This document shows positions 52,667-61,307 of a stretch of DNA of 64,000 bases, one piece after another. The notes under the pieces were generated by a model. It was not told where the DNA came from, did no database searches, and was given only the letters and a program-made list of their open reading frames with translations. Each line of letters starts with the position of its first letter. The first letter of the stretch is position 1. A program made the translations under genes and the position numbers. Origin of the DNA: Poseidonibacter antarcticus (lineage in GTDB: Bacteria > Campylobacterota > Campylobacteria > Campylobacterales > Arcobacteraceae). Where the stretch lies: positions 434,001 to 498,000 of the forward strand of contig NZ_RCWF01000001.1 of assembly GCF_003667345.1 (NCBI RefSeq). The letters are read 5' to 3'.

Positions 52667-53872
52667 TTAAATATTTTTACTAGTACTTTTCAATATATGT
52701 TCTTCAATAACCCAAGAAGCAAAGGGTATTGAGCAAGTAAAAGCTGGACTAACAGCGTTTAATATATGTATTGAATTATCATCAGATTCAACAACAAAAT
52801 CTTGAACTAATTCTAAAGTTTCTTTATTTAATAGTTGCGCTCTAATACCAGGTGTACTCCAAGAATCATATCCCTTATGATCCATATTTTTTGTTAACTT
52901 TTTAGCTAAACTTTTTAGATAATTTAAATTATATTTTTTAACTTCACTATATGCTAAGCTTCTAAATCCAAAAGCATTACTTATAAATAGTTTTAACTCA
53001 TAATATGATATTTGCAAAAATTCTTTTAAAGAAAAATTATCAAATCCATTATAGTTTTCTCTCCAAAATGCAGGAATTGCAGTAGGACCTATTTTACTTT
53101 CATTATCAACAGTTAATGTGTAATGAACACCTAAAAAAGGATTATCTAAGTTTGGAACTGGATATACATTTGTTGTAAGATTTGAAATATTATTCTTATC
53201 TTTAAGATATATACCTTTAAAAGGAATTATCACATAATCTTTTGAAAAACCAAAATCTCTAGCAATATTATCAGCATATAAACCTCCACAATTTATAACT
53301 TTTACAGAATTATAATCACCTTGATTAGTATGAATTACATTTCCTTTAGATCCTAAATACTTACAATCTAAAATTAACTCAACTCCTAATTCTTCAATAG
53401 CTTTAGCAAATTCTTTTGTAACTTCTTTTGGATTAACAGTTGCAGTTGAAGGACATAAAAGTGCTTTTTTATAAGTTTTAATATTTGGATATAATTCTTC
53501 CAAATCTTTTTCATTAAGCCAATGAAGTTCTACACCATTTGCATCACCTCTTCTTTTTAATTCTTCTAAACCTTCAACTTCTTTATCATCAATTGCTACA
53601 ACAACTTTTTTACAAGAATTTACAGTAAGATTTCTCTGTTTACAAAACTCTTTTAGTGCCTTATTTCCATCTTTAGTAAATTTTGCTTTTAATGAATCTG
53701 CACTATAATAGAATCCTGCATGTAAGACACCAGAATTTCTACCACTACTATGCATTGCAACTTCTTTTTCTTTCTCTAATACAATTATTTTACTATCAGG
53801 GAATCTTTCTTTTAGATTTTTTGCAATATTTAGGCCAATAATTCCAGCACCAATAATTAAATAATCATACAT
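52667..53872 (-). CDS. lhgO: LhgO-type L-2-hydroxyglutarate oxidase/dehydrogenase
   Basis: A 401-residue FAD enzyme that oxidises L-2-hydroxyglutarate to 2-oxoglutarate. The FAD motif is LIIGAGIIGLNIAKNL, and the family block is MHSSGRNSGVLHAGFYYSADSLKAKF. A second FAD segment, VINCGGLYADNIAR, and GVHYTLTVDNESKIGPTAIP follow. It is the last gene of the TRAP/LUD unit and is 3 bp after the LUD gene. Related DAO-family oxidases (malate or other hydroxyacids) cannot be excluded. Confidence 0.85.
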   Translation of the reverse strand: MYDYLIIGAGIIGLNIAKNLKERFPDSKIIVLEKEKEVAMHSSGRNSGVLHAGFYYSADSLKAKFTKDGNKALKEFCKQRNLTVNSCKKVVVAIDDKEVEGLEELKRRGDANGVELHWLNEKDLEELYPNIKTYKKALLCPSTATVNPKEVTKEFAKAIEELGVELILDCKYLGSKGNVIHTNQGDYNSVKVINCGGLYADNIARDFGFSKDYVIIPFKGIYLKDKNNISNLTTNVYPVPNLDNPFLGVHYTLTVDNESKIGPTAIPAFWRENYNGFDNFSLKEFLQISYYELKLFISNAFGFRSLAYSEVKKYNLNYLKSLAKKLTKNMDHKGYDSWSTPGIRAQLLNKETLELVQDFVVESDDNSIHILNAVSPAFTCSIPFASWVIEEHILKSTSKNI

Positions 53873-53875
53873 TTT

Positions 53876-54472
53876 CTAATATCCTAATTCTTCATTTACA
53901 ATGATAATTGTTATTCTATCTTTTTCATCTGCTTTTATATAAGTAAATTTATTAGCAATGTTATCTAAGTTATGTCTTGGTGTTTTACCCATTTCAATAG
54001 CTTTTGAATTCATTCTATCAATATTTTTTACAGCACTAACTTCCATTAATCTTTTAAAACCCTCTTCTACATTTTCAACTATTTTATTAATACCTACTAT
54101 TACTACAACTTTTTTAGGACCAAAAATCAAAGCTGCAACTCTGTTCCCACTACCATCAGCATTCACTAGTTTTCCATCTTTTGTAAGTGCATTAGTTCCA
54201 CAAACAAAAACATCTGTTAGCATACCCTTTCTTCTTCTATCAAGGTTTTCACTCATTGGAATACCTTTTTCATATTGATTAAATAAAGTTATATCTTCTT
54301 TATTTACTAAATAATCTAATAATCCAATTTGATCTACACTTGTTGAACCACCTAAACCAACACTTATATTTGGTTTGATAAAAGTTTTTGCTAAAGTTAA
54401 TGCTTCTTTTTTATTTTCAACAAAATGAGGATCGTATCCACAAGTCTTTAAAGTTTCTAAAAATTCATTCAT
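53876..54472 (-). CDS. LUD-domain protein
   Basis: A 198-residue protein with the LUD (DUF162/LutC-like) fold: ISVGLGGSTSVDQIGLLDYL, then GTNALTKDGKLVNADGSGNRVAALIFGPKKVVVI with a Gly-rich segment and a C-terminal TPRHNLDNIA. In lactate utilisation the family takes part in electron transfer with iron-sulfur partners; the stand-alone form has no defined role. It lies between the TRAP permease and the LhgO gene, 3 bp from the latter, so it may help 2-hydroxyacid oxidation. Confidence 0.8.
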   Translation of the reverse strand: MNEFLETLKTCGYDPHFVENKKEALTLAKTFIKPNISVGLGGSTSVDQIGLLDYLVNKEDITLFNQYEKGIPMSENLDRRRKGMLTDVFVCGTNALTKDGKLVNADGSGNRVAALIFGPKKVVVIVGINKIVENVEEGFKRLMEVSAVKNIDRMNSKAIEMGKTPRHNLDNIANKFTYIKADEKDRITIIIVNEELGY

Positions 54473-54488: not shown

Positions 54489-56435
54489 TTAATTAACTAT
54501 ATATATTTTTGCTTCACGAGATAACATCTTATGTAATCCCATTGATACAGCAAATATGATAAACCCTATAATATGTGTATTCTGAATAATACCAAAATAG
54601 CTTTCCATATTAAATACATTATCTGGACATAAAAGTAATATCGCTGCAATAAAGAATACAATTCTTTCAATTACATTTAACTTTTGATCCCAGTAACCTT
54701 CCATTACAATTGAGAACGATGCAATACCCATCATAGCAAAGGTAAATACTTCAAATCTTTCAAACCATGTTCCATTAATTAATGGAGTAAATGCAAATAA
54801 TAAAGGAATTATATACATTCCTTTCCCTACTTTCCATGCAACTAATCCTGTTTTCATTGGAGGAGTTTTAGCAATTGCAGCTGCTGCAAAAGCTGCTAAA
54901 CAAACAGGTGGTGTAAGATTTGAATCTTGTGATAACCAAAATATTATTAAGTGTGCGGATAATAAATACATTGCAACTTCAGGCATTTCAATTCCAGCAT
55001 TAACCAATGCAGCCATTTCAGGACTTAACATTAAACCTACTAACGCAGGTGCTGATAGTACAGATAAAACAACATAAGATGCAGTTACAGGTAATCCCAT
55101 ACCAAGAACAAGTGAAGCAACAGCTATTAAAATAATTGCTATTAAAAGTGAATTACCTGACCATTCCATAATAAGTTGTGAGAATGTGATTCCAATACCA
55201 GAAATATTAATAACTCCAACAATAACACCAACAGCAATAAGTAAAACACCCGTTACTACCATATTTTGAGAACCTAATGCCAAAGCTCCGAAGATTTCTT
55301 TGATTCCCATTCTTTTATTTTTAGTTAAATACGATGAAAAAATAATGGCAAATATTGCAATACCTGCTGCATATGTAGGTGTAAAACCATAAACTAATAA
55401 TCCAACAAGTGTACTTAAGGGAATAATAAAATGGAAACCTTCTCTTAAAATTGGAAGAATCTTAACATCACTATTCTCACCTTTAATATTATGTTCTTTT
55501 GCATGAATATTTATATAAAAAGCAATTGAAGCAAAATATAAAATTGCAGGTAAAATTGAAACAGTTACAATTGTTACAAATGGAATATGTGTCATTTGAG
55601 CCATAATAAAAGCCCCTGCTCCCATAATTGGAGGCATGATTTGTCCACCTGTACTTGCCGCTGCTTCAACTGCTGCTGCAAATGTACCTTTAAATCCCGC
55701 TTTTTTCATCATTGGAATTGTTATTGAGCCAGTTGAAACAGTATTTGCAACAGCTGAACCAGAAATTGTTCCCATTAAAGCAGATGAAAATACTGCAACA
55801 TGTCCAGTTCCACCTGTATATTTTCCTGCAACTGCACTTGAAACATCAACTATAAAGTCTCCTGCTCCTGATTTTAAAAGGAATGCTGCAAATAAAATAA
55901 ACATAAATACATATGTTGATGAAATAGTAGCAATTGGACCAAATAATCCTTCACTTGTATAGAACATTCTATAAAGGAATCGCTCAGGAGTCATTCCAGC
56001 AAAAGCAAAAATACCATCTATATGTTGACCTAAAAATAGTAAATATGCAATACAAGACAATATTATAAAAGGAATAATATATCCAGTTGACTTTCTAACC
56101 ATTTCCACTGCTAAAACAATTGTCATTCCAGCAACTATTAAATCACTAGTTCTCATTTGTCCATTTGCTACTGCATATAAACTTTCTTCAAAAAGTACCA
56201 TATAAGCAAATGTAAATAACGATAACACTGCTAAGAACAAATTAATTATACTTACTTCATTTTCATTTTTTGTTGCTTCATAAGTTAAAAAACCAAGAGA
56301 TGCTAATAAAGCAAAATGTGCTGAGTTAAACCATAAATCACTAATTCCACCCCAAATATTTACACCAAAATGAAATAGTGATATAAGTATTGCGTAGACA
56401 AAAGTGATTTCTTTAAAATATTTTATTTTAATCAT
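54489..56435 (-). CDS. TRAP transporter fused permease (TAXI type)
   Basis: A 648-residue inner-membrane protein that fuses the small (4TM) and large (12TM) TRAP subunits, as in the TAXI class. The first part (about 1-145) has several helices; the large part begins near GYIIPFIIL and contains GTISGSAVANTVSTGSITIPMMKKAGFK and the block EAAASTGGQIMPPIMGAGAFIMAQ, the DctM hallmark. It would take up a small organic acid with sodium, using the SBP encoded upstream. A hairpin in the gap upstream may lower its transcription. Confidence 0.9.
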   Translation of the reverse strand: MIKIKYFKEITFVYAILISLFHFGVNIWGGISDLWFNSAHFALLASLGFLTYEATKNENEVSIINLFLAVLSLFTFAYMVLFEESLYAVANGQMRTSDLIVAGMTIVLAVEMVRKSTGYIIPFIILSCIAYLLFLGQHIDGIFAFAGMTPERFLYRMFYTSEGLFGPIATISSTYVFMFILFAAFLLKSGAGDFIVDVSSAVAGKYTGGTGHVAVFSSALMGTISGSAVANTVSTGSITIPMMKKAGFKGTFAAAVEAAASTGGQIMPPIMGAGAFIMAQMTHIPFVTIVTVSILPAILYFASIAFYINIHAKEHNIKGENSDVKILPILREGFHFIIPLSTLVGLLVYGFTPTYAAGIAIFAIIFSSYLTKNKRMGIKEIFGALALGSQNMVVTGVLLIAVGVIVGVINISGIGITFSQLIMEWSGNSLLIAIILIAVASLVLGMGLPVTASYVVLSVLSAPALVGLMLSPEMAALVNAGIEMPEVAMYLLSAHLIIFWLSQDSNLTPPVCLAAFAAAAIAKTPPMKTGLVAWKVGKGMYIIPLLFAFTPLINGTWFERFEVFTFAMMGIASFSIVMEGYWDQKLNVIERIVFFIAAILLLCPDNVFNMESYFGIIQNTHIIGFIIFAVSMGLHKMLSREAKIYIVN

Positions 56436-56532: not shown

Positions 56533-57552
56533 TTATTTTCCTAATAACGACGCAGGTATAGTAATACCTTTTTCTTGATAGAATCTAATAGCACCAGGAT
56601 GTAAAGGCATTGGAAGACCTGAAATAGCTTTTTCTAAAGACATTGCTTTTGTAGCTTTGTGAACAGAATTCAAAAAAGGTAGGTTTTCATAGATTGTTTT
56701 AGTTAATAAATATACATCTTCTTCAGGAGTATCTTTTGTAACAACTAGTAAGTTTGGTTGTGCAATTGTATTAATATCTTTTGTTTGACCAGGATAAGTT
56801 CCTGCTTTAATATTAAATGGAGTCCATACTGGATAGTTAGCATTAATATCAGCTAAATTTTTCTTAGAAAAATCTAATACTTTAATTTCGTCATTTCCAA
56901 TAGAAGCAAAGGCATTTGTAACTGCAGATGTTGGAGGACCTGATGGAGTATTCATTCCTTGAACTTTTCCATCTTGAAGTGCAGTTGAACTTGGAGTATA
57001 TCCTAAGTATTGAACATTCATTTTATTAAAATCAATTGAAAGTGAACTCATAATAGTTTCAGCAGAAACTCTTGAACCTGAAGATCTTCCACCAATTGCA
57101 AATCTTTCACCATATAGATTTTGTAAATCCATAATATTTCCAGTTTTTGCAAATTTATTTTTTATTGTAAATTGTTCAACATTTTGCCATAACATAGAAA
57201 CAGATCTTAAGTTTTTTTTAGGATTTCCTTCATATTTTGCTTTTCCTTGCCATGCCATAGAACCAAAAAGTCCTTGCAAAATTGCAAAGTTAACTTCACC
57301 TTTTTGAAGCATATCAACATTTTCACCAGATCCAGCAGATGTAATAGCTGAAAATGTAGTTTTATGAGTTTTTGCTAATTTAATTGAAGCAATTGTAGCA
57401 ATTCCAACTCCAACTGGATAATATGTTCCACCTGTACTTGCTGTTGCAATTACATATTTTGTTTCTTTTGTAGCTGCATTTGCACCTGTAATCATTGTAG
57501 CTGTGATTGCTGATGTAACTAATAGCTTTTTTAAAATCGATAATTTTCTCAT
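56533..57552 (-). CDS. TAXI-family TRAP solute-binding protein
   Basis: A 339-residue periplasmic binding protein of the TAXI family. A signal peptide (MRKLSILKKLLVTSAITATMITGANA) precedes YVIATASTGGTYYPVGVG, the TAXI start block, then FSAITSAGSGENVDMLQKGE and RFAIGGRSSGSR. The frame is open 21 codons further upstream, but a strong AAGGAAAAT site lies before the ATG at 57550-57552. Known TAXI proteins bind dicarboxylates or glutamate-like acids; the ligand here is not shown. The LhgO neighbour makes a C5 hydroxyacid or 2-oxoglutarate a fair guess. Confidence 0.9.
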   Translation of the reverse strand: MRKLSILKKLLVTSAITATMITGANAATKETKYVIATASTGGTYYPVGVGIATIASIKLAKTHKTTFSAITSAGSGENVDMLQKGEVNFAILQGLFGSMAWQGKAKYEGNPKKNLRSVSMLWQNVEQFTIKNKFAKTGNIMDLQNLYGERFAIGGRSSGSRVSAETIMSSLSIDFNKMNVQYLGYTPSSTALQDGKVQGMNTPSGPPTSAVTNAFASIGNDEIKVLDFSKKNLADINANYPVWTPFNIKAGTYPGQTKDINTIAQPNLLVVTKDTPEEDVYLLTKTIYENLPFLNSVHKATKAMSLEKAISGLPMPLHPGAIRFYQEKGITIPASLLGK

Positions 57553-57606
57553 TTTATTTTCCTTAGTTTTTAACTTAAGGAAAGTATAACACAGATTGAA
57601 ACAAAA

Positions 57607-57626
57607 TTGTTTCAAAATTGTTTCAA
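57607..57626 (-). promoter_or_regulatory. Operator-like tandem repeat upstream of the SBP gene
   Basis: TTGTTTCAAAATTGTTTCA at 57607-57625 is repeated base for base at 61041-61059 before the kinase gene. Within it, TTGTTTCA recurs 11 bp apart, one helical turn. A further TTGAAACAA lies at 57596-57604, so the site is extended by an inverted half. It ends 54 bases before the start codon of the SBP gene. Confidence 0.7.
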
Positions 57627-57671
57627 ATTTGTAAATTTACTATTATTTGCCTATTTTATAGATCATGTAGA

Positions 57672-58376
57672 TTACTTTATTATATAACCTAGACCTTTTT
57701 TTGAAACAATAAAGTCATTATCACTAATTTTATCTTTTACTCTTTTTATTACTGTACGCATTGTGGCATCTGAAGTTTTGGGATCATTCCAAATAAATTC
57801 TTTTAAAAAATCTTTGGACTTTATCTTTTTGATATCACTTATTAAAGCTTGAATTAGCAAAGTTTCTTTTTTTGATAAGTTAATTAATTCATCATTATTA
57901 TACAAAAGATTTGTTTTTGTATTAAAAGTATAACTATCATTTAATCTTAATACCTCATCAATAGTTTCATTTTTAGATTTTTCCTCTAATACTTTAGTTT
58001 TTACTTTTTTTAACATTTCCATCATATTTTTAACTTCTAAAGGTTTTACAAAATATGAGATAACATTTAAATTAATTGATTTAAAAAGATACTCTTCATC
58101 TTTGTATGCAGACACGATAATAAACTTTTGATTATCATTGATTTTTGTAATATCTTCAATCATACTAAGACCATCTTTATTTGGCATTCTAATATCTGTA
58201 AGAACTAAATCAAATGCCTTTTTATCATCATAAGCTTTCTTATATATATCAAGACCTTGCTCTCCATCACATGCAATTGATACCTCATCAAAAACTGTAT
58301 CAAGATAAAACTCAAGTATCTCCCTTGCATCTTCTTCATCTTCTACTAATAATACTCTTGTAATTAAATTATCCAT
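57672..58376 (-). CDS. OmpR-type response regulator of the TRAP unit
   Basis: A 234-residue regulator. The receiver has EDEEDA in the acidic pocket, phospho-Asp in LVLTDIRMPNKDGLSMIE and Lys in SYFVKPLEVK. The C-terminal winged helix has INLSKKETLLIQALI and a recognition part TSDATMRTVIKRVKDKI. It follows the kinase after 15 bp and precedes the TRAP genes, whose upstream region has its likely operator. Autoregulation is suggested by the second copy before the kinase. Confidence 0.9.
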   Translation of the reverse strand: MDNLITRVLLVEDEEDAREILEFYLDTVFDEVSIACDGEQGLDIYKKAYDDKKAFDLVLTDIRMPNKDGLSMIEDITKINDNQKFIIVSAYKDEEYLFKSINLNVISYFVKPLEVKNMMEMLKKVKTKVLEEKSKNETIDEVLRLNDSYTFNTKTNLLYNNDELINLSKKETLLIQALISDIKKIKSKDFLKEFIWNDPKTSDATMRTVIKRVKDKISDNDFIVSKKGLGYIIK

Positions 58377-58391
58377 ATTTTTCCTATGTAG

Positions 58392-61004
58392 TTATATATC
58401 TAATGTGATTATAAACTTCACACCACTATTAATATTTACTACTTCTATTTTACCTTTCATATTTGTTTCAATAATAGCCTTTGTCATATAAAGACCAATT
58501 CCTGTACCTTGTGTTTCAAACTTTGTAGTAAAGTATGGTTCAAAAATTTTATCCATAATATCATTGTTAATGATACCACCATTATTTGAGATTTCAATTT
58601 TTACCTTATCTTCTACAAGGATTGTATTAATATTAATTATTGCATCAAATTTTTCTTTTTCTTTTCGTAATAGTATTGCATCTTTTGCATTGTTTAAAAT
58701 ATTCAATAAAGATTGTTTTAATTCATTTTCATAATTTATAATTTCAATATCTTCATATTTAAACTCTATTTTTATATTTTCTATCTCGTATTGATTTTTT
58801 ACCATATATAATAAGGAGTCAATACACTCTTTAATTGAAAACTTATTTTTAACTTTTGATGGTTTATAAAAATTTCTAAAATCATCAATTGTTTCACTCA
58901 TGTACTCAATATTCTTATTTGCTTTTCGCATAAATTTATCTAACTTTTCTTCACTTACTTTTTCATTTTTATAATTATCTCTTAAAAAATGAAGAATTAA
59001 AGATACATTGTTTAATGGTTGTCGCCATTGATGTGAAATATTTCCAAGCATTTCTCCCATTGAAGCTAATTTACTTTGCTGAATTAAAATTCTATCTTTT
59101 TGCCTATTTTTATTTACTTCTACTTCAACTTTTAATTTTAATTCTTCTTGGCTAACTTTTATTTTTGTAATATCATTTATATATCCATAAAAATGACTTA
59201 CCTCCCCTGAATGATCTTTTATTAGTATTACTCTACTTGAAATCCACTTAATTTCATTTGCTGCATTTATTATTCTACATACAAAGGTAAAGTTTGACAA
59301 ATCTTTTTTTAAGGCAGCATAAATAGCTACTTTTACTTTATTAATATCTTCTTTATAAATTAAATTCATAAAATTCAATTCTTTGTTTTCAAAATCTTTT
59401 TTATTAAAGCCAAAAGTTTTAATACTATTTGATATATACTTTATACTTAAGTTTTTGTCATTAAATAATTTAAAAATTACAATCTTTCCATCTTCTACTA
59501 ATAACTCAATATCAAGAAGTTCTTTTTTCATTCTTTTATTTTTATCAATATCCATTGACATCATAAGCATACGATCTAAATTACCAGATTCATCATAAAA
59601 TGATTTACCACGGGCTAAGACCCATTTAAAATCATCATTTTTTGTTTTAAGTCTATATTCACATACAATTGTATCATCAACTTTTGCAAATATTTTATCA
59701 AATAATTGTTCAACCTTATTTTTATCTTCATTATGAATTAAATTGAACCAATTAGCAAAAGTATGTATTTCATTTCTTTTATATCCAAACATTTCAAGCC
59801 ATTTATCTGAAAAATAAATCTTCTTAGTTTTAAAGTTAATATCCCAAAGGCCATCATTTGACGCAATAATTGCCAACTCAAATCTTTTTTTCCAATGTTC
59901 TAATGATAAAGTTTTTGTTTTAAGTTCATCATTATATTCATTAAAAATTGTTTTAATGAAATTTGAAAATATATATGTAAATAATATAAGTATTGCACTA
60001 ACTACCAAAATAATAATAAAAACTTTCGAGAATAAATTTCTATAATCATTTTTAATATCAAAGATAATATCTTTTAATTTATATTCGATAATTTTTTTAT
60101 CATAAAATACACTTATTATAAAATTATATTTATTATAAAGGTATACATAGTTTTTAAATTTTTCATTATATTCATAATCGGTAAAATAATGTTCTAGTAT
60201 TTCATAAGATTCATTATCTTCTTTATCTTTTAGTAAAACATTTGATTTTTCTATCTTTTTATTATTTTCAAAATTAAATGTATCTTGAGTTATTAAATCA
60301 TAAAACCAAATATTAAACTTTTGTGTTTTAATTGAATCTATTATAGATTTTTTTGTAATCTCTTTTATTGAATTAATAATAGAAAATGAACCTATATAAT
60401 ACTCTTTATCATTAATTTTAACACTGTCAAAAAAACTAAGTCTAACTGTTTTCTTTACATCATCATTCCAAAATTGAAGATTGTTACTACCTTGAGAATA
60501 TATATATTGTAAAGTTAAGTTTTTGTATTTATTCACTTGTTGTTTTTTATTAAATATTAATCTTTGTAAATATGAAATTGAAGTATCTCCATACAAGATA
60601 TCTAAATTATCTTTTTTAAAAATAACTAATTCTATACTATTTTCTTTTTCAATATTTCTCAAATAATCTTCTAATAAACCAAAATTATTTAAAGAGTTTG
60701 ATTCTATATATCCAATTGTTTTATATGTAATCTTTTTTAGTACTATTTCTTCCTTAGAAAAACTCTTTTTTACTTGATTATTTATATATACTTTAAATTT
60801 ATTTAATTCTTCTTTTTTATCAAATTCATAATTTAATATATATTTTTGTTTTAATAAATCTATTTTTCTATTTTCTTTTGACTCTAATATAAAAAAGGTA
60901 ATTGTTAATAAAATTATAGCAAGTAGCATTATAAAGATTATAGGTATTTGAGAAAATAAACGTTGAATATCATCTAAGTTATATTTCCTATTTTTAAAGA
61001 ACAT
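58392..61004 (-). CDS. Sensor histidine kinase with two PAS domains
   Basis: An 870-residue kinase. TM1 (about 13-37) and TM2 (about 326-350) flank a long periplasmic sensor region. A PAS domain (about 375-495) has GLWDINFKTKKIYFSDKWLEMFGY, and a second PAS region (about 505-625) with ISNSIKTFGFNKKDFEN follows. The HisKA box is MGEMLGNISHQWRQPLNNVSL, then an N-box LNILNNAKDAIL and G2 TQGTGIGLYMTKAI. It belongs with the regulator next to it and probably senses the TRAP substrate or a related acid. The upstream operator-like repeat is described separately. Confidence 0.92.
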   Translation of the reverse strand: MFFKNRKYNLDDIQRLFSQIPIIFIMLLAIILLTITFFILESKENRKIDLLKQKYILNYEFDKKEELNKFKVYINNQVKKSFSKEEIVLKKITYKTIGYIESNSLNNFGLLEDYLRNIEKENSIELVIFKKDNLDILYGDTSISYLQRLIFNKKQQVNKYKNLTLQYIYSQGSNNLQFWNDDVKKTVRLSFFDSVKINDKEYYIGSFSIINSIKEITKKSIIDSIKTQKFNIWFYDLITQDTFNFENNKKIEKSNVLLKDKEDNESYEILEHYFTDYEYNEKFKNYVYLYNKYNFIISVFYDKKIIEYKLKDIIFDIKNDYRNLFSKVFIIILVVSAILILFTYIFSNFIKTIFNEYNDELKTKTLSLEHWKKRFELAIIASNDGLWDINFKTKKIYFSDKWLEMFGYKRNEIHTFANWFNLIHNEDKNKVEQLFDKIFAKVDDTIVCEYRLKTKNDDFKWVLARGKSFYDESGNLDRMLMMSMDIDKNKRMKKELLDIELLVEDGKIVIFKLFNDKNLSIKYISNSIKTFGFNKKDFENKELNFMNLIYKEDINKVKVAIYAALKKDLSNFTFVCRIINAANEIKWISSRVILIKDHSGEVSHFYGYINDITKIKVSQEELKLKVEVEVNKNRQKDRILIQQSKLASMGEMLGNISHQWRQPLNNVSLILHFLRDNYKNEKVSEEKLDKFMRKANKNIEYMSETIDDFRNFYKPSKVKNKFSIKECIDSLLYMVKNQYEIENIKIEFKYEDIEIINYENELKQSLLNILNNAKDAILLRKEKEKFDAIININTILVEDKVKIEISNNGGIINNDIMDKIFEPYFTTKFETQGTGIGLYMTKAIIETNMKGKIEVVNINSGVKFIITLDI

Positions 61005-61040
61005 ATATTCTTACCTTAAATTAATTTTTATATCTACTCT

Positions 61041-61060
61041 TTGTTTCAAAATTGTTTCAT
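61041..61060 (-). promoter_or_regulatory. Second copy of the operator-like repeat, before the kinase gene
   Basis: The 19 bases TTGTTTCAAAATTGTTTCA are the same as at 57607-57625. They begin 36 bases upstream of the kinase start, in a gap of 87 bp. Confidence 0.7.
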
Positions 61061-61091
61061 ATTTATTATTGTATTAAAAAGAAACAAAGAC

Positions 61092-61307
61092 TTAGCTTTT
61101 AGAATCCTCTCTTATTTTACTGACTGTTTTACCACCAATTGCATAGTTATCAGTGTTTATCTCTTCTATTATAACTACAGCACTAGAAGCACCTCGTCCA
61201 TTAAAAATACTTGCAAATAGTTCTGTAATACCTTTTGAAAGCTGTTCTTTTTGTTCTTTTGTAGCTCCACCGTCTTCTTCTGTCATTTTTACGTTAATTA
61301 CTGGCAT
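61092..61307 (-). CDS. 4-oxalocrotonate tautomerase-like protein
   Basis: A 71-residue tautomerase with the N-terminal catalytic Pro exposed after Met removal (MPVINVKMTEEDGG), then KEQKEQLSKGITELF and VVIIEEINTDNYAIGGKTVS. Members isomerise enol/keto acids. It may act on a catabolic intermediate in this island, but a promiscuous role is as likely. It is 33 bp after the DUF711 gene. Confidence 0.88.
   Translation of the reverse strand: MPVINVKMTEEDGGATKEQKEQLSKGITELFASIFNGRGASSAVVIIEEINTDNYAIGGKTVSKIREDSKS

Follow-up and report, generated by a model that had tools for sequence, protein, structure and literature searches.

Regulators of the OmpR/PhoB class bind sites built from 11-nt direct repeats, and the unit of the Escherichia coli PHO box is CTGTCAT-like (PMC4415409, in the part of the article available). 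DccRS and RacRS of Campylobacter jejuni are OmpR-type two-component systems (portion available of PMC9449129) from the same phylum as the bacterium considered here, and the accessible text of PMC4456614 describes RacR as an activator of the gene for a glutamate-forming enzyme. TAXI proteins, which serve TRAP transporters as solute-binding proteins, commonly bind L-glutamate, and the system of Proteus mirabilis is reported to take up 2-oxoglutarate and 2-hydroxyglutarate (PMC12344293, available in part). In this study, a 64,000-nt stretch of the Poseidonibacter antarcticus genome (contig NZ_RCWF01000001.1, positions 434,001 to 498,000; hereafter the window) was analysed, in which one 19-bp element precedes both a TAXI-TRAP transporter operon and an operon encoding a sensor kinase and a response regulator. 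Judged from its sequence, this locus very probably represents a known kind of system, i.e. an OmpR/PhoB-type pair with a tandem 11-bp operator that controls a transporter and itself. What is new is the evidence for a regulon of two promoters and for opposite geometry of the site at these promoters.

The element, TTGTTTCAAAATTGTTTCA, is identical at positions 57607-57625 and 61041-61059, as the initial annotation had stated, and each copy is composed of two TTGTTTCA units (plus-strand pattern TTGTTTCA-AAA-TTGTTTCA) with starts 11 bp apart, in agreement with the internal repeats described there. On the minus strand, which carries all genes concerned, the site reads TGAAACAATTTTGAAACAA, i.e. TGAAACAA-TTT-TGAAACAA. 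The copy at 57607-57625 precedes the TAXI gene (56533-57552) and that at 61041-61059 precedes the kinase gene (58392-61004), with the response regulator gene (57672-58376) next in line; the gene positions confirm the earlier placement of the element upstream of the kinase/regulator pair and of the transporter. The features concerned are:

61052-61059, minus strand: operator unit 1 (TGAAACAA) of the kinase promoter, read from the sequence
61041-61048, minus strand: operator unit 2 (TGAAACAA) of the kinase promoter, at a distance of 11 bp from unit 1, read from the sequence
58392-61004, minus strand: sensor histidine kinase, 870 aa, with an extracytoplasmic sensor modelled as PAS/Cache-like, two PAS_3 domains, HisKA and HATPase_c
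57672-58376, minus strand: response regulator, 234 aa, receiver and winged helix (OmpR/PhoB type)
57618-57625, minus strand: operator unit 1 (TGAAACAA) of the TAXI promoter, read from the sequence
57607-57614, minus strand: operator unit 2 (TGAAACAA) of the TAXI promoter, at the -35 position, read from the sequence
56533-57552, minus strand: TAXI-family TRAP solute-binding protein, 339 aa (TIGR02122, 287.2 bits against a cut-off of 84.35)

In the whole genome (2,917,500 bases), the exact pattern (0 mismatches) occurs in two places only, which are the two promoter copies, and thus the genome scan proposed in the initial annotation revealed no further exact copy at an unrelated gene. Only the exact copies stand out, because with up to 2 mismatches the genome contains 26 matches versus 20 for a reversed control pattern; within the window, the 10 matches found with up to 3 mismatches (6.05 expected) are near chance. 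Two of the nearest candidates were rejected, as they lie inside genes, which we take to encode an ABC-transporter ATPase (C4:152498) and a small redoxin-like protein (C1:316072). The sole promoter-like position among these candidates is C2:443994-444012 (L033:3995-4013), where a perfect TGAAACGA-TTT-TGAAACGA pair stands 44 nt upstream of an SDR gene, behind which lies a gene for a 323-aa protein with a presumably OmpR-like winged-helix end. This pair as such was not found in the other genomes of the family.

The comparison in relatives that had been suggested was performed with 104 Arcobacteraceae genomes, in which the core TGAAACAATTNTGAAAC and, as a control, its reversed pattern were sought. 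This analysis revealed 34 exact matches in 25 of the 104 genomes and none for the control. Twenty of them stand before TAXI genes, 13 before orthologues of the kinase gene, and one (G093) lies inside a gene which we assume to be flhA-like. Among the relatives found by sequence, those with a name include Poseidonibacter lekithochrous and P. ostreae, as well as Halarcobacter and further Arcobacter-like bacteria. With one mismatch allowed (and no N), 63 matches were obtained (26 before TAXI genes, 16 before kinase genes, one before a regulator gene (G086) and 20 elsewhere), and the reversed control gave 16. A larger regulon was considered and rejected, the 20 matches elsewhere being about as many as those of the control. 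Since 33 of the 34 exact matches are located at the two promoters and the one-mismatch matches elsewhere are at about the level of the control, the detectable regulon consists of these two promoters.

The site also accompanies a particular regulator. Relatives of the window's regulator (E<=1e-50) are present in 57 of the 104 genomes, and two groups were distinguished, i.e. group A (26 genomes; relatives 58-81% identical to the window's regulator) and the paralogous group B (approximately 48-57% identical). The tree, whose outgroup rows have very long branches, places them as sister groups on two sides of one branch, although support is modest (A 76/61, B 93/88). An exact core match was detected in 24 of the 26 group-A genomes and in only 1 of the 78 others, namely G005, whose assembly is 86% complete, is split into 270 contigs and includes the TAXI operon. 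The site moves together with the transporter gene: the TAXI gene is separated from the regulator gene by 475 nt (G003), 942 nt (G045), 1.5 kb (G010), 3.9 kb (G041), 4.0 kb (G001), 4.1 kb (G043) or 8.3 kb (G074), or lies on a separate contig (G042), and in 8/8 of these genomes it is preceded by two units.

The position of the site relative to predicted -10 boxes was examined for the 28 TAXI genes that had a usable start; one of the 29 matches (L184) was dropped, as the match starts at residue 104, and the stretch examined before it contains no site. In 26 of the 28, T[GA]AAACAA is followed after 3 nt by TGAAAC[AC]A and, after a further 17 or 18 nt, by TATA[AC]T, which lies 24-31 nt from the inferred start. 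The second unit takes the -35 position, because 17-18 nt separate it from the -10 box, and no TTGACA-like box was seen at this position in the 26 promoters. In the two remaining genomes (G004 and G060) the TAXI gene lies directly behind the regulator gene, without a site of its own. A repeat in the -35 region is the typical place of a PhoB-type activator, and it is there that PhoB has its repeat in target promoters. The geometry at the TAXI gene is consistent with that of an activator. The box of the window is:

57583-57588, minus strand: TATACT, the predicted -10 box of the TAXI promoter, separated by 18 nt from unit 2, which precedes it

In the window, the TAXI copy is followed by a third unit in inverted orientation (TTGAAACAA on the plus strand, 57596-57604), which only nearer relatives keep. 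In the stretch 57596-57615, this extension reads TTGTTTCAA on the coding strand.

A different arrangement was found at the kinase gene, for which 22 of 26 starts were examined (all except L096, L098, L104 and L105). A two-unit site is present at 16 of the 22 starts, and no site was found at that of L106. In 13 of the 16 promoters, TATA[AC]T lies 4-9 nt before the site (by chance, resampled sequence gives a rate of 0.02), with GTTTCA just before this -10 box in all 13; the box follows the site in one of the 16 (G004). The site thus begins within a few nucleotides of the expected transcription start. Furthermore, only 8 nt lie between the operator and the kinase start codon in four genomes (L090, L092, L093 and L094), so there is no room for a promoter behind the site, and unit 2 reaches into the likely ribosome-binding site. 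Relative to the predicted -10 boxes, this geometry resembles that of a repressor, from which we infer negative autoregulation in most species, a sign that the initial annotation had not specified. In the window, the corresponding box is:

61068-61073, minus strand: TACAAT, the predicted -10 box of the kinase promoter, with 8 nt between it and the operator that follows

Directly before the kinase promoter, and in the same direction, lies a gene for a 71-aa protein (61092-61307, minus strand), presumably resembling 4-oxalocrotonate tautomerases. Read-through from this gene into the kinase operon is possible.

The assignment of the regulator to the OmpR/PhoB type is based on its receiver (PF00072, 69.4 bits) and Trans_reg_C (PF00486, 38.3 bits) domains, both above the Pfam cut-offs, and on the tandem half-sites approximately 11 bp apart at its target promoters. 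The protein scores below the cut-offs of the PhoB equivalogs (TIGR02154, 54.2 versus 296.2 bits; NF053854, 80.9 versus 270 bits). The phosphorylation residues E12, D13, D61 and K111 are invariant in 32/32 aligned regulators. Winged-helix elements are visible in the structure model (mean pLDDT of 76, with the protein end poorly modelled), in which the recognition helix comprises residues 203-216. This helix has the form DAT[ML]RT[VLIA]IKR[VL]KDK in 26/26 group-A regulators, while their overall identity drops to 58%, and DS[AS]FRTVMKRLKDK in the six aligned regulators of group B.

A group-B cassette is also present in the genome of P. antarcticus (C8:23500-34000, L036), where a second TAXI-TRAP cassette (TAXI2-permease) is arranged convergently with the genes for a paralogous regulator and kinase (RR2-HK2). 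RR2 is 54% identical to the window's regulator. The two cassettes share the same kinds of genes, and TAXI2 promoters from relatives of the group-B cassette have an 11/22-bp rhythm. Unlike its counterpart, the group-B cassette has no TGAAACAA repeat, it encodes the other recognition helix, and its kinase gene lies directly behind a gene, which we take to be truA-like, without a promoter gap. The rhythm was quantified for 26 TAXI, 21 kinase and 18 group-B TAXI2 promoters (18 of 25 group-B loci). At both group-A promoters the periodicity peaks at 11 bp (z of 13.9 for TAXI and 6.9 for the kinase), whereas the 11- and 22-bp signals of the group-B promoters, formed by a different, A+T-rich sequence, are weaker (z of 3.7 and 3.6). 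Transfer of the motif to group B was rejected: the TGAAACAA repeat is absent from these promoters, and a consensus could not be fixed, as the top-scoring 11-bp pairs vary from species to species. Site and helix change together between the paralogues, as would be the case for a regulator that reads the site.

We propose that the adjacent OmpR/PhoB-type regulator would bind the two TGAAACAA units as a head-to-tail pair with 11-bp spacing, and that the two promoters would form its dedicated regulon. In its phosphorylated form, on the -35 region of the TAXI-TRAP-LUD-LhgO operon, it would recruit polymerase and activate transcription, and at its own kinase-regulator operon, where the site coincides with the transcription start or closely follows it, binding would limit its own synthesis (negative feedback). 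That the regulator binds both sites appears very likely, and there is good reason to regard the 19-bp element as the adjacent regulator's operator and the two promoters as its regulon. To judge from the geometry, activation of the TAXI operon is probable, and repression of the regulator's own operon in this species is favoured with moderate confidence. The reading in full (one 19-bp site with two opposite roles set by position, for activation of an operon for uptake and oxidation of a 2-hydroxyglutarate-type acid and for repression of the regulator's own operon; a two-promoter regulon kept across much of Arcobacteraceae even where the operons lie apart; and a group B in which the recognition helix and the 11-bp repeat became different jointly) is plausible, albeit tentative. 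The earlier interpretation as an autoregulated, transporter-controlling two-component system with a readable DNA site is supported by the comparison of sequences.

Several observations weigh against this proposal. In G004 the kinase site stands 4 nt before TATAAT. The -10 box of the kinase promoter is TACAAT in the window and only TATGTT in L088; in relatives it is mostly TATAAT or TATACT, 4-9 nt before the operator. Five kinase promoters of genus g10 (L099-L103) have one clear unit, in most of them with a degenerate unit before it, and this unit stands before a TTGACT-17/18-TAnnAT core, so the sign of regulation could differ in g10. G060 has a regulator of the same helix type and no site at either the kinase or the TAXI gene, and G028 has a TAXI site, with no group-A regulator found in its assembly of 180 contigs. 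It was also observed in g10 that the predicted -10 box ends only approximately 10 nt before the kinase start codon, so a nearly leaderless mRNA would result.

Some of these points would suit a system with the same operator and regulator in which both operons are activated (positive autoregulation) and the kinase transcript starts at a place other than predicted. OmpR/PhoB regulators often activate their own genes, in g10 a plausible core promoter stands downstream of the unit, and the -10 box before the window's kinase site is imperfect. However, a -10 box precedes the site in 13 of the 16 kinase promoters, and the 8-nt distance from site to start codon in four genomes speaks against a start behind it, which makes positive autoregulation unlikely. 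The reader of the site could also be another DNA-binding protein, since the genome encodes dozens of related regulators (56 matches), binding by the adjacent one is a prediction from sequence, and a similar TGAAACGA pair precedes the SDR gene with the winged-helix-like gene behind it. This appears quite improbable: the sites of a global regulator should be more numerous, the site and the group-A regulator co-occur (24/26 with it, 1/78 without), the paralogous cassette lacks the motif, and the 11-bp spacing is that of the OmpR/PhoB class (PMC4415409, available part). It is most improbable that the TAXI copy acts as a terminator or RNA hairpin downstream of the regulator gene, with the kinase copy being a product of chance. 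Although the coding-strand sequence TTGAAACAATTTTGTTTCAA also forms an inverted repeat, which is present at the TAXI copy in nearer relatives, its inverted arm is missing in more distant ones, in which the direct repeat stays. In addition, the site follows the TAXI gene even when the regulator gene is kilobases away, the A+T-rich element offers no G+C-rich stem, and the kinase copy is conserved too. The hairpin was therefore rejected, and activation at the TAXI promoter combined with repression at the kinase promoter is the reading preferred here.

The TAXI gene is followed by three further genes, the last two of which belong to the same probable operon:

54489-56435, minus strand: fused TRAP permease, 648 aa (TIGR02123, 604.3 bits against a cut-off of 320.65)
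53876-54472, minus strand: LUD-domain protein, 198 aa (Pfam LUD_dom)
52667-53872, minus strand: L-2-hydroxyglutarate oxidase, 401 aa (NF008726 equivalog, 327.2 bits against a cut-off of 299)

As the binding protein and the fused permease exceed the TIGR02122 and TIGR02123 cut-offs, the transporter is assigned to the TAXI-TRAP type; exceeding the NF008726 cut-off identifies the oxidase in the same way. The LUD and oxidase genes stand behind the permease gene in many of the relatives read. The oxidase hints at the substrate. It closes the operon, and it fits the uptake of 2-oxoglutarate and 2-hydroxyglutarate by the P. mirabilis system (PMC12344293, available in part), so by analogy a 2-hydroxyglutarate-type acid would be the likeliest substrate. 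The closest solved chain is 9ibp (E of 2.5e-111), and no paper naming it was found in the open-licence literature.

The kinase would read an extracytoplasmic signal, probably the transported dicarboxylate. Its sensor is modelled as a PAS/Cache-like domain (pLDDT of 88), for which Foldseek returned no match at E<=0.001. With VIA-align, the best Z was 11.2 over 114 residues at 3.0 A, and the neighbours included CitA (9.3), DcuS (8.6), LuxQ (8.6) and DctB (7.6), of which CitA, DcuS and DctB are carboxylate sensors. The model suggests a PAS/Cache-like fold only, from which the ligand is not assignable. One may speculate that the kinase senses the substrate by way of the TAXI protein itself, much as LuxP serves LuxQ.

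Compared with described systems, the regulator shares with PhoB the receiver, the winged helix and the two 11-nt direct repeats, but the unit is TGAAACAA(N3) instead of CTGTCAT-like, the regulon comprises two promoters and the site in its own promoter lies after the -10 box. The transporter resembles VcGluP of Vibrio cholerae and the systems of P. mirabilis and Azoarcus in combining a TAXI binding protein with a TRAP permease; in contrast to these systems with known substrates, it is accompanied by a dedicated two-component pair, and its substrate is deduced from an operon partner. DccRS and RacRS are likewise OmpR-type systems, and the DccR site may resemble TTTCA repeats. In the open-licence literature, no paper was found that combines Arcobacter, a TRAP transporter, a two-component system and TAXI, and no TAXI-linked two-component system was found described for this marine group; the circuit does not appear in the available part of PMC11265409.

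For this marine group, a short readable operator, a probable regulator and a complete small regulon are gained. Paralogous regulators with different DNA sites are useful for understanding how the recognition helices of OmpR/PhoB regulators choose their sequence, and the pair of groups A and B would, if the proposal is true, constitute a natural experiment on the divergence of duplicated regulators. The results also suggest that 2-hydroxyglutarate-type acids may be a regulated food for these bacteria.

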